64,000 nucleotides of DNA, taken from assembly GCA_025462735.1 (NCBI GenBank), contig JAOAPC010000012.1, forward strand, positions 1 through 64,000, in the 5' to 3' direction. Shown here piece by piece: positions 31,606-34,764 of the stretch. The DNA comes from Acidobacteriaceae bacterium. GTDB taxonomy: Bacteria; Acidobacteriota; Terriglobia; Terriglobales; Acidobacteriaceae. The notes beneath the pieces are model-generated. The model had not been told where the DNA came from. It worked only from the letters and a program-made list of their open reading frames with translations, and made no database searches. How positions within the stretch are numbered: the first letter of the stretch is position 1; each line of letters opens with the position of its first letter. A program made the translations under genes and the position numbers.

Positions 31606-32214
31606 TCATTCTGCAGTATTCGTTTGGCCAGAGCCAATCGCTTCAAACGTCATTTCTTGAGCGTTGCTTCCGTTCTCTCTTCTCCAAGCAAGAAATAGTC
31701 CGGCGTAGGTTTCTGTGATGTATTGCGTGCGGTCGATTTGAAGATCGCGTGCGAGCGAGTCTATCCATTCCGGCGGACCTTCAATCTCGGCGAAGTTGCC
31801 GATGGGAGTTTCGTCGATCACCACGTATCCTTCTCCGCTTGGAGCCTTCCATTCGGCGCGAAATTTTTCGTAGCGGAAGGAAGGCTCGAACTGCACCGCG
31901 CGGAGGATGGCTTCCATCTTCTCGCCATTTTCTACGCGAGTCTCGGTCTCGATGCGCGTTTTGTGCGGCCCGTCTTTCTTGTCGTTCTTGTTTTTGGTTT
32001 TGTGAGTCAGCACCCAGAGTTCGCCGTACTTGCGCAGGCGGAGCACGTCGCCCCGGTCCCGTAGCGGATGTCCTGGCAGATCAAACAGCACATTCATCTC
32101 GTGAGTTCGGGGCGTGACCTGCTGAAATCCAAGCTGGCGAAGGCGGGCGACGAGGCCGCCTAGACCGGTGAGGCGGAACTTGATTTCGACTTCGTTGGAA
32201 GCGGAACCCGGCAT
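31606..32214 (-). CDS. CYTH domain protein (class IV adenylate cyclase / triphosphatase-like)
   Basis: A 202-aa protein of the CYTH family. The N-terminal ExExK-type motif is EVEIKFRL. Further charged residues that line the triphosphate tunnel are in DRGDVLRLRKYGELWVLTHK, HKTRIETETRVE and VVIDETPIGNFAEIEGPPEW. Members hydrolyse or cyclise triphosphate substrates with Mg2+ (adenylate cyclase CyaB, thiamine triphosphatase or inorganic triphosphatase); which activity this one has cannot be told from sequence. It is cytoplasmic, single-gene, and lies downstream of no obvious operon partner. Confidence 0.85.
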   Translation of the reverse strand: MPGSASNEVEIKFRLTGLGGLVARLRQLGFQQVTPRTHEMNVLFDLPGHPLRDRGDVLRLRKYGELWVLTHKTKNKNDKKDGPHKTRIETETRVENGEKMEAILRAVQFEPSFRYEKFRAEWKAPSGEGYVVIDETPIGNFAEIEGPPEWIDSLARDLQIDRTQYITETYAGLFLAWRRENGSNAQEMTFEAIGSGQTNTAE

Positions 32215-32281: not shown

Positions 32282-33253
32282 CTAGCTGAAAGTCGGCAGC
32301 TTCATGAGATCGTTTGCCGGCACCTGTTCAACCGGTTGTCCGGCTTTGCGCCAGGCGGCGAGTCCGCCGGTGATCACAAACGCGCGAAAGCCTTGCTTTC
32401 TAAGTAGCCGCGCCACACGGGCGCTGGTGGCTTCGCGGGCTCAAGTGCAGTAGAGATAAATGTCCTTGTCGTGCGGCAGGGTTTTCAGTTCGTCCGCCAG
32501 CCGGTTAGGTTCAATGCGAATTGATCCTGCAATCCGCTGGGTGCCGGGATCGTAATACCCGTGACTGCGCACGTCAGCCAGTATGACCTCTTTGTCTCCC
32601 TCAGCAGATAGTCGGAGCGCGATTTCTTCGACTCCGACGTGCGGAGGCAGGCCATAAACGCGATAACGAAAATACTGGAAGATGCGGTAAGCGGCGAATG
32701 CCACCAGTGCAAAAATAGCCAAAGCCGCGATGGTGCGGCTTCCGGTCTGCAAGCCATCGGTGATGTGTGCGACAAAGTCACGGAAGATAAAACCCGCTCC
32801 TCCGTAGGCCAGGATGTAAAGGCAAGCACCGGCTATATCAAACTGCAGAAACTGCGACACCCTCATCTTCATGCTGCCGGCCAGCGGCGCTGCCATAGTG
32901 TTCACGCCAGGAATAAACTTGATAAAGAGTAAAGTGGTCCGGCCGTGTTTGTAAAAACTTTCTGCCGAACGCAGAATGCAAGTTTCAGGGTTGAGCGATA
33001 TACCGCAAACAAATCCGAGGAACGCCCATCCCGTTTTGCGGCCAAGGAAAAAGAGTAGCGTGTCACCGAGCAGCATTGCGGTGATCGCGGCCAGGAACGC
33101 GAAGGGCGCGCTCATAACGTGGGCAGCCGCAGCAGAACCAGCCGCAACCAGCGCTAAGGCAGCCGGGGCGGGAAGTCCACAGGCCTCTGCCAAAACGATA
33201 AGGAAGAGCAACGAATGGCCGTGATGTGAAACCGCTCTAAGCAGATCGTTCAT
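32282..33253 (-). CDS. DedA-like membrane protein fused to rhodanese, with in-frame TGA at the active-site loop
   Basis: The first 270 codons (33253 to 32444) encode a DedA/SNARE-associated membrane domain (FLIVLAEACGLPAPAALALV, LLFIKFIPGVNTMAAPLAGS, about four to five helices) and a rhodanese domain (EVILADVRSHGYYDPGTQRI, KDIYLYCT). A TGA at 32443-32441 stops the frame. After it the same frame runs on for 52 codons with clear rhodanese sequence (AREATSARVARLLRKQG, ITGGLAAWRKAGQPVEQV) to a TAG at 32282. As I recall the family, relatives have Cys at the TGA position (YCTC-x-x-EATSARVA). So this is either a fresh nonsense mutation or a selenocysteine codon. The start is the ATG at 33253, by family length. 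A membrane-bound sulfurtransferase or redox role is inferred. Confidence 0.75.
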
Positions 33254-33315: not shown

Positions 33316-33645
33316 TTACATTGCGGAGGACGCCTTTTTCAGCATCTTGACGCTCATGACGTGGATCTGGTTTTTGTCAGCGTAAACGTGGGCGCTGAGT
33401 TGAACATGATGGCCTTCATGACCCTTCAGGGTCTCGGGATTCATAACGTCCCAGCTTTTTTGGTCGGCGTCGGAGACGAATGTCACTTTGTCACCTTCGG
33501 CCTTGACCGTTCCCTTCAGCGTTTTTAGCGGCGCAGCAGCTGCTTTGTCCTTACCCATGTCGCAGCTCTTGCCCATCTCCTGCGCCATAGCGGTCATGCT
33601 GAATGCGAGACAAACTGCAAATATCAAAATCCACAGCTTCTTCAT
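33316..33645 (-). CDS. Secreted DUF5818-type protein
   Basis: A 109-aa exported protein with a Sec signal (MKKLWILIFAVCLAFSMTAMA). The mature part, LKTLKGTVKAEGDKVTFVSD then WDVMNPETLKGHEGHHVQLS, matches the DUF5818 style common in Acidobacteria, a small OB-like beta domain. It probably sits in the periplasm. Function unknown. The ATG at 33645 is chosen because AAAGGAG precedes it by about 10 bases and the signal peptide begins there; the frame is open 22 codons further upstream. It has its own terminator. Confidence 0.75.
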   Translation of the reverse strand: MKKLWILIFAVCLAFSMTAMAQEMGKSCDMGKDKAAAAPLKTLKGTVKAEGDKVTFVSDADQKSWDVMNPETLKGHEGHHVQLSAHVYADKNQIHVMSVKMLKKASSAM

Positions 33646-33777: not shown

Positions 33778-34764
33778 CTATTTTTCGCGGGCAACCACGA
33801 ATTCCGGAGCCCAGAGCAGAGCGCGTTTGATCTCGGAACCGGGAAATGTGCAGATCGCCTTGCGGGCGGATTCCGCGAACGCAGCTGCGCGGGTGGTTGC
33901 GGAATCCAGAGACCCGTAACGCTCAAGAATGCCGAGAATCTCCGAATGAGTGACGCCGTTGAATGCGCGCTGGTCGACTACAGTTTCAATCATCTCGCGC
34001 TCTTCTGGGGTGCAGCGCTCGAGAGCGTGAATCACCGCCATAGTCACTTTGCCCTCGCGCAGGTCGCTGGCTACGGGCTTGCCCAGCACACTCTCTGACG
34101 CGGTAAGGTCGAGCACGTCATCTACAATTTGAAATGCCATCCCAAGATCGCGGCCATACCGCGCCACTTGGTCTTCCTGCTCTGGAGTTGCGCCGCCAAG
34201 GATCGCGCCCAGCCGCATGCAGACAGAGAATAGACATGCGGTCTTGCGGTAAATGAGGTCGACGTGTTCGTCCAGAGAAATGAGCTTGCCTAGCTTTTCC
34301 ATCTGCAGCAGTTCGCCTTCGACCATCTGCTGGGTGAGATCGATGAGAGCGTCGAGGATGCGGAAATTTCGTTCTTGTACTGCAACTTTAAACGCCTGCA
34401 TGTAAAGCCAGTCACCCGCCAAGACGCATTTTGAATTGCCCCATTGGGTGTTTGCGGCAGGACGGCCGCGCCGGGTCTCGGCCTCATCGATGATGTCATC
34501 GTGAACAAGAGTCGCGGTATGAATGATCTCAACCACAGCGCCGAGTTTCACGGCGCCGCGCCCTTCGTAATTGAAAAGCTTGGAGGAGAGCAGCAGCAGC
34601 GCCGGACGAATCCGCTTGCCTCCGCCTCCGCGCAGGTATTCCCCGATTTCGGTGATCGCGGTGACGTCTGAAACCGTGTCGCGGCCAAACTCGCGCTCGA
34701 TGGCAGCGAGATCGTCCCGGAGAAGTTCGAAAACTTCCGTTCCGTTAATGGCAATGGTGTTCAT
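33778..34764 (-). CDS. Polyprenyl diphosphate synthase
   Basis: A 328-aa trans-polyprenyl synthase that condenses isopentenyl diphosphate onto an allylic primer to give the side chain of respiratory quinones. The first Asp-rich motif is DDIIDEAETRRG (Asp89-Asp93), the second IVDDVLD (Asp215-Asp219). Also seen are GGKRIRPALLLL near the N-terminus and VLAGDWLYMQAF. The residues before the first motif (IIHTATLVHDD) are small, which fits a long-chain product (C35-C50), but the exact length cannot be given. It follows a repeat element and precedes an unrelated DUF5818 gene, so it is not in a quinone operon. Confidence 0.92.
   Translation of the reverse strand: MNTIAINGTEVFELLRDDLAAIEREFGRDTVSDVTAITEIGEYLRGGGGKRIRPALLLLSSKLFNYEGRGAVKLGAVVEIIHTATLVHDDIIDEAETRRGRPAANTQWGNSKCVLAGDWLYMQAFKVAVQERNFRILDALIDLTQQMVEGELLQMEKLGKLISLDEHVDLIYRKTACLFSVCMRLGAILGGATPEQEDQVARYGRDLGMAFQIVDDVLDLTASESVLGKPVASDLREGKVTMAVIHALERCTPEEREMIETVVDQRAFNGVTHSEILGILERYGSLDSATTRAAAFAESARKAICTFPGSEIKRALLWAPEFVVAREK

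Follow-up and report, generated by a model that had tools for sequence, protein, structure and literature searches.

The window analysed here is a stretch of 64,000 nucleotides from an Acidobacteriaceae bacterium (assembly GCA_025462735.1, contig JAOAPC010000012.1, positions 1 to 64,000 of the forward strand). On its minus strand, a gene joining a DedA/VTT membrane domain to a rhodanese domain is located between genes for a polyprenyl diphosphate synthase and a CYTH-domain protein, and its reading frame contains a TGA codon within the rhodanese domain. The features of the locus, in the order of the minus strand, are as follows:

33778..34764, minus strand: upstream neighbour, long-chain polyprenyl diphosphate synthase (PF00348)
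32282..33253, minus strand: coding sequence of the DedA-rhodanese fusion, 323 residues with TGA as selenocysteine (Sec), ending at TAG; 120 homologous copies
32792..33148, minus strand: DedA/VTT membrane domain, residues 36-154 (PF09335)
33005..33007, minus strand: Cys83, DedA loop; together with Cys92 in 117/120 copies; Cys in 1/20 DedA proteins without rhodanese
32978..32980, minus strand: Cys92, DedA loop; together with Cys83 in 117/120 copies; Cys in 0/20 DedA proteins without rhodanese
32345..32599, minus strand: rhodanese domain, residues 219-303 (PF00581, PDB sequence and fold matches)
32447..32449, minus strand: Cys269, presumed rhodanese persulfide-cysteine position; Cys in 120/120 copies; aligned with Y-C of 6mxv
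32441..32443, minus strand: TGA codon, predicted selenocysteine, residue 271; TGA in 65/120 copies, Cys in 52
32412..32431, minus strand: originally proposed hairpin GCCAC/GTGGC; can form here, unconserved (25/65 TGA copies)
32410..32424, minus strand: conserved SECIS-like hairpin GCGCC-CGUGU-GGCGC, apical loop 32415-32419, 21 nt after TGA
31606..32214, minus strand: downstream neighbour, CYTH-domain protein (PF01928)

The frame starts at an ATG (33253), runs through YLYCT to the TGA (32443-32441), and continues for 52 sense codons of rhodanese sequence to a TAG at 32284-32282, exactly as originally described. With the TGA taken as a residue, the 323-residue product matches the VTT model PF09335 at 37.3 bits (cut-off 33.9) and the Rhodanese model PF00581 at 39.9 bits (gathering score 22.2). 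The catalytic-loop cysteine of the rhodanese domain is also present. Up to the TGA, the DedA part and half the rhodanese make an open frame on their own, and gene calling with the standard code ends the fusion protein at the TGA, inside the rhodanese domain.

The nearest NCBIfam model of the upstream synthase is octaprenyl diphosphate synthase, matched below its cut-off. Homologues of the synthase and of the CYTH protein are found in the flanks (up to 1.5 kb, either orientation) of 22/29 and 23/29 orthologues, respectively, and the gene may have a link with the metabolism of polyprenyl compounds or quinones. A small protein with a signal-peptide-like start is encoded on the minus strand (33319-33645) in the interval separating the synthase gene from the fusion gene; it has no Pfam or NCBIfam match, and a homologue is present in the flanks of 10/29 orthologues.

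The TGA codon and the selenocysteine machinery

The source genome (4.36 Mb, 24 contigs, 97% complete) contains a tRNA-Sec with anticodon tca by ARAGORN (69.9 bits), selA (543.7 bits in one frame), selB (374.7 bits) and selD (359.2 bits), each above its curated family cut-off, so that all four components on which the original prediction of a selenoprotein depends are present. The tRNA-Sec search used a loose threshold, matching all 14 control genomes and exceeding the cut-off in 5. A second match in the source genome, at 47.1 bits and just above the cut-off, is called tRNA-Ser by ARAGORN. The selA gene (G000:C11:406055-407503) matches its model in two pieces separated by about 100 unmatched bases within a single open frame, and similar split matches in several relatives suggest an insert in SelA. 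The selD gene of the same genome (contig C18) carries an in-frame TGA near its N-terminus (L020:1531-1533), at what is presumably the known Sec/Cys site of SelD. The genome therefore holds a second likely Sec gene, and the selD product, selenophosphate synthetase, is likely a selenoprotein itself.

When 120 genomes from the same family were searched with the protein, at least 118 gave matches. From the matches listed, 120 copies that reach the rhodanese were fetched from 110 genomes; DedA-only matches and two fragments, G071:C374 (with a TGA inside too) and G010:C42, were left out. The codon aligned with the TGA in these copies is TGA in 65, Cys in 52 (TGC 39, TGT 13), Ser in 2 and Arg in 1, with no TAA or TAG in any of the 120. 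One copy (L137, genome G002) was first reported with an internal TAA; in its open frame the aligned codon encodes Cys, with a TAA as the terminator. The residue two before the codon is Cys in 120/120 copies, and Sec or Cys occupies position 271 in 117/120. The statement in the original prediction that relatives read YCTC is correct in that Cys occupies the site in the 52 copies, and the TGA is not a peculiarity of this strain among TGC-bearing relatives, the two further genomes of its genus that were sampled, G027 and G092, having TGA at the codon as well.

The codons downstream of the TGA remain under constraint. Among 40 of 41 close TGA copies (the remaining one is truncated at the edge of its contig), pN is lower than pS 3' of the hairpin in 780/780 pairs, with means of 0.21 and 0.67. 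Since TGA occupies the same codon in 65/120 copies and pN<pS holds in every pair, a TGA by chance is excluded, and the gene combines an in-frame TGA over the homologues' Cys with selection downstream, as expected of a bacterial selenoprotein.

The distribution of TGA copies follows that of selA. This gene is detected in 76/120 genomes of the same family and in 1/14 control genomes; it is present in 63/63 genomes with a TGA copy versus 6/47 with only other copies (Fisher p 4e-24, uncorrected for relatedness of the genomes). Under stricter filters, 66/120 genomes have a tRNA-Sec above the cut-off; among the 63 that carry a TGA copy these number 54, the other 9 giving no match. On a quick tree of 118/120 copies (two were too short), for which long terminal branches and the joining of long branches were flagged, Sec and Cys copies are mixed within two paralogous clades, and the Sec label changes at least 3 times (at fewest 6). 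In the clade holding the studied gene, 5/44 copies have Cys, all 5 in genomes without a selA match; lineages without Sec machinery have Cys at the same place.

A conserved hairpin downstream of the TGA

Counted from the T of the TGA, the conserved stem comprises nt 20-24 and 30-34. All five pairs can form in 63/65 TGA copies versus 3/55 others, and the consensus among TGA copies is GCGCC-CGKGU-GGCGC. The consensus fold of the TGA copies displays exactly this hairpin, while that of the other copies displays none. One compensatory change is seen (L141, T-A for C-G). The second base of the loop is G and the next is G or U in 65/65 TGA copies, the loop types being CGGGT (43), CGTGT (18), CGTGC (3) and AGTCT (1). 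The codons at nt 19-33 encode Ser-Ala-Arg-Val-Ala and are near frozen among synonymous alternatives in TGA copies, with AGC in 62/63, GCC in 65/65, GTG in 61/61, GCG in 64/65, and CGG (43) or CGT (21) for the 64 Arg codons. Copies without TGA use mixed codons (GCC 23/46, GTG 9/20, GCG 23/54).

According to the available text of PMC13188914, a bSECIS has a loop of 3-9 nt, a stem of 4-16 bp, a loop located 16-37 nt from the UGA, a G within the first two loop positions, and a minimum free energy (MFE) of at most -7.5 kcal/mol. The studied hairpin fits these constraints, with a 5-nt loop (CGUGU), 5 pairs, G in second position, a distance of 21 nt from the TGA and an MFE of -13.3 kcal/mol (nt 10-42), another stem being preferred when folding begins with the TGA itself. 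In that minimum-energy fold, over 42 nt from the TGA, the stem present is the GCCAC/GTGGC stem of the original prediction; with a z of -0.19, the fold of the studied gene is not unusually stable. Compared with synonymous shuffles, folding does not set the two groups apart (mean z -0.28 in TGA copies versus -0.25 in others). At least four of the five conserved pairs appear in the minimum-energy folds of 54/65 TGA copies over nt 10-42 and 47/65 over nt 4-54, versus 10/55 of the other copies over both stretches. The case for the candidate SECIS is carried by the comparative signal and not by folding energy.

The originally proposed stem does form, and it lies in the right place, but its pairs are the wrong ones: all five are kept in 25/65 TGA copies and 4/55 others, against 63/65 TGA copies for the nt 20-24/30-34 stem, and this comparison rejects it as the SECIS.

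From these comparisons, the apparent premature stop is almost certainly a Sec insertion signal kept in dozens of related bacteria. SelB and Sec-tRNA(UCA) would read the TGA as Sec271, with insertion directed by the five-pair hairpin whose loop lies 21 nt downstream, and SelB-mediated insertion of this kind is strongly supported by the aligned sequences. The original selenoprotein reading is thereby upheld, with the machinery present and TGA common to 65/120 copies including congeners. The best explanation overall is very probably one DedA/VTT-rhodanese selenoprotein with a SECIS-directed Sec271; the relay proposed below is graded separately.

Two other accounts of the TGA were weighed. Unusual opal-reading tRNAs are known, and Cys is the alternative residue at the site, both of which would fit decoding of the TGA by a suppressor or unusual tRNA that inserts Cys or some other amino acid; yet the TGA is tightly linked to selA, a bSECIS-like hairpin is present and selD contains a TGA as well, which leaves this account very improbable. 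A recent nonsense mutation or sequencing error, yielding a pseudogene or truncated protein, would need only one base (TGC to TGA) and would leave the DedA and half rhodanese open by themselves, but it is hardly credible and is rejected, with the TGA conserved across genera (65/120 copies, including 2/2 congeners), purifying selection persisting 3' of it, no TAA or TAG at the codon in 120 copies, and the synonymous codons of the hairpin frozen.

Cysteine pairs and the proposed redox relay

The active site of the rhodanese domain reads C269-T-U271. In alignment, C269 falls on the Y-C cysteine of 6mxv, a rhodanese of solved structure, presumably the cysteine that carries the persulfide, and the predicted Sec therefore lies two residues after the persulfide cysteine. 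In the DedA domain, C83 and C92 are both Cys in 117/120 copies, that is, in 117/118 fusions alignable there; two of the three exceptions are split copies without DedA in the aligned frame, and the third, L137, keeps only C83. In a hand-picked alignment chosen for spread (A1, 74 of 118 near-full-length copies), positions C83, C92, C269 and 271 are kept in 74, 73, 74 and 73 of 74 sequences (U counted as C). The four positions are also kept in 69/69 DedA fusions among the listed loci of a pattern scan (described below) that score >190 bits to a DedA profile made in this analysis, and in 2/3 plasmid homologues examined. Among 20 DedA proteins without a detected rhodanese, picked from the DedA-only matches listed (L275 among them in a longer frame), C83 and C92 occur together in none, and one has Cys at 83.

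The AlphaFold model has a pLDDT of 84.7 and a pTM of 0.71. Among PDB entries it matches rhodanese folds best, over about one third of its length, and no DedA structure is among the 50 PDB matches listed. Of six segments compared for charge, the most positive are the C83/C92 loop (mean of 6.8 Lys+Arg) and the stretch before the rhodanese (3.2). By the positive-inside rule and the order of the helices, both would be cytoplasmic, which suggests that the C83/C92 loop and the rhodanese site of the modelled protein face the same side of the membrane.

In the proposed relay, C269 would carry a persulfide or be oxidised by a substrate. U271 would then attack C269, giving a selenenylsulfide, and this bond would be reduced through, or hand its oxidising equivalents to, the C83/C92 pair. 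A redox or persulfide relay is favoured because four Cys/Sec positions are conserved, the DedA pair is tied to the rhodanese, positive charge lies next to both sites and the flippase residues are partly replaced. Against it stands a Burkholderia homologue that has CxC yet no C83/C92. C269/U271 chemistry with a C83/C92 relay in a redox or persulfide enzyme is thus put forward tentatively, its chance of being correct falling somewhat short of even. The protein would then be a membrane-tethered redox or sulfane-sulfur enzyme, and not a plain sulfurtransferase or a canonical undecaprenyl-phosphate flippase.

Partial loss of such a relay may have occurred naturally in two settings. The homologue L284, from a Burkholderia stagnalis plasmid, keeps the CxC of the rhodanese and lacks C83/C92, and L140, L142 and L144 have Ser or Arg where others have Sec or Cys. 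These three form a separate clade on the quick tree.

The main rival to the relay is a selenoprotein whose chief function is to carry lipid phosphates; the rhodanese would then be an accessory for regulation or sulfur relay, and C83/C92 would be structural or metal-binding residues. The available text of PMC10127716 describes COG0586 DedA proteins as putative undecaprenyl-phosphate flippases, and the conserved neighbour of the fusion gene encodes a polyprenyl diphosphate synthase, both of which speak for this account. The flippase residues given there are a pair of acids in re-entrant helix 1 and a pair of Arg in re-entrant helix 2. When these positions are assigned by alignment with DedA paralogues lacking rhodanese, rather than with YghB itself, the fusion keeps the first acid (E23) and a basic residue (K112), but has Ala (A32) in place of the second acid and Asn (N118) in place of the second Arg, so that two of the four positions differ. 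C83/C92, moreover, accompany the rhodanese fusion and are missing from the 20 DedA proteins without rhodanese. The carrier account is a serious possibility on which doubt nevertheless weighs.

A wider reading is that a mobile CxU-rhodanese module, with a portable SECIS, has been placed on several carriers, namely DedA, a cation/proton antiporter and a trypsin-like protease. In the DedA form, a lipid-carrier fold would have become a redox enzyme of the membrane, with electrons or sulfane sulfur exchanged between C83/C92 and C269/U271 on the cytoplasmic side; its substrate would be polyprenyl- or quinone-linked and would come from the synthase encoded next to it. This reading, in which the DedA form is a redox enzyme, is unlikely as a whole.

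Distribution and comparison with known systems

Contigs of GTDB genomes were scanned at the DNA level for a Cys codon, a Thr/Ser-like codon, TGA and a hairpin; the hairpin was demanded by design, and the scan was not used for hairpin conservation. At least 117 loci were found, and 117/117 of those listed lie in frame within a rhodanese, as judged by a profile made in this analysis. They comprise 70 DedA fusions, 10 loci running off a contig end and 37 others. The phyla of the DedA fusions, with 80/117 loci titled, include Acidobacteriota, Rokubacteria, Eremiobacterota and Gammaproteobacteria. Of 20 genomes chosen among those bearing the 117 loci, 18 have selA and 2 lack it. The 37 complete non-DedA loci listed include 9 with a sodium/hydrogen exchanger domain and 9 with a trypsin-like domain; a Pfam rhodanese match (E up to 1e-5) is seen in 35 and an NF041203 match (E up to 1e-10) in all 37, the cut-off of NF041203 being passed by 2/8 non-DedA loci scanned singly (L221, L148). 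A protein search of genome contigs with the fusion protein confirmed no relative. In a plasmid collection 30 records matched, and the 3 examined all have Cys at the site.

Individual loci illustrate the other carriers. A TGA-containing CxU rhodanese with the same hairpin is fused to a sodium/proton antiporter at L190:5314-6999 and L152:630-2498, and a TGA-containing CxU rhodanese is combined with a trypsin-like (HtrA/DegP-related) protease at L164:3473-5053, L205:77-1534 and L146:2330-3904.

The terms selenoprotein, rhodanese and DedA were not found together in a full-text literature search, and among the matches listed for selenoprotein and DedA, none bears on the fusion by its title. Neither 'DedA' nor 'VTT' occurs in the main text of PMC13188914. 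The available text of PMC12013277 puts the known selenoprotein genes of one acidobacterium at 3 but names none of them, so an earlier, unlabelled sighting of the fusion there is possible. A 2006 survey counted 3 selenoprotein families and 4 proteins in Acidobacteria, according to the available text of PMC1794560. With the fusion, the short list of selenoproteins reported from this bacterial group would gain a conserved membrane protein, one that ordinary gene calling would truncate. Its active-site Sec, together with a Cys pair in the DedA domain that is absent from the DedA proteins without rhodanese, points to redox chemistry and names four residues.

CxU rhodanese selenoproteins are already known. 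NF041203, rhodanese_LYCAU or 'rhodanese-related (seleno)protein', corresponds to rhodanese form 3 with the motif CxU in the available text of PMC13188914. It is the best-scoring NCBIfam model for the fusion protein, which shares with it a rhodanese bearing a predicted Sec in the CxU of the active site (C269-T-U271). The model differs in covering 126 positions and one domain, with no DedA part and no C83/C92 pair, and the fusion protein scores 75.9 bits against a curated cut-off of 115, by which membership in NF041203 is rejected. TsoB (NF045694, rhodanese/DsbD fusion-like), as far as its name and entry indicate, likewise joins a Sec rhodanese to a membrane redox partner, but its motif is UxxxxU with two Sec, and it is not among the NCBIfam matches of the fusion protein at E up to 0.1. 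The Cys-type fusions annotated as 'DedA family protein/thiosulfate sulfurtransferase GlpE' (for example WP_003112452.1 and WP_043095768.1) have the same two domains. C83, C92, C269 and C271 are kept in 2/3 plasmid homologues of this type examined, which differ in having Cys in place of Sec and share about 31-35% identity.

Rhodanese fusions are mentioned in a 2023 survey of DedA proteins, the available text of which calls their connection to undecaprenyl phosphate unclear (PMC10127716), and the present protein gives a handle on that question. Compared with COG0586 DedA proteins, the fusion is alike in its VTT domain, the first acid (E23) and one basic residue (K112), and it differs in the replaced second acid and second Arg, the additional C83/C92 pair and the fused rhodanese.
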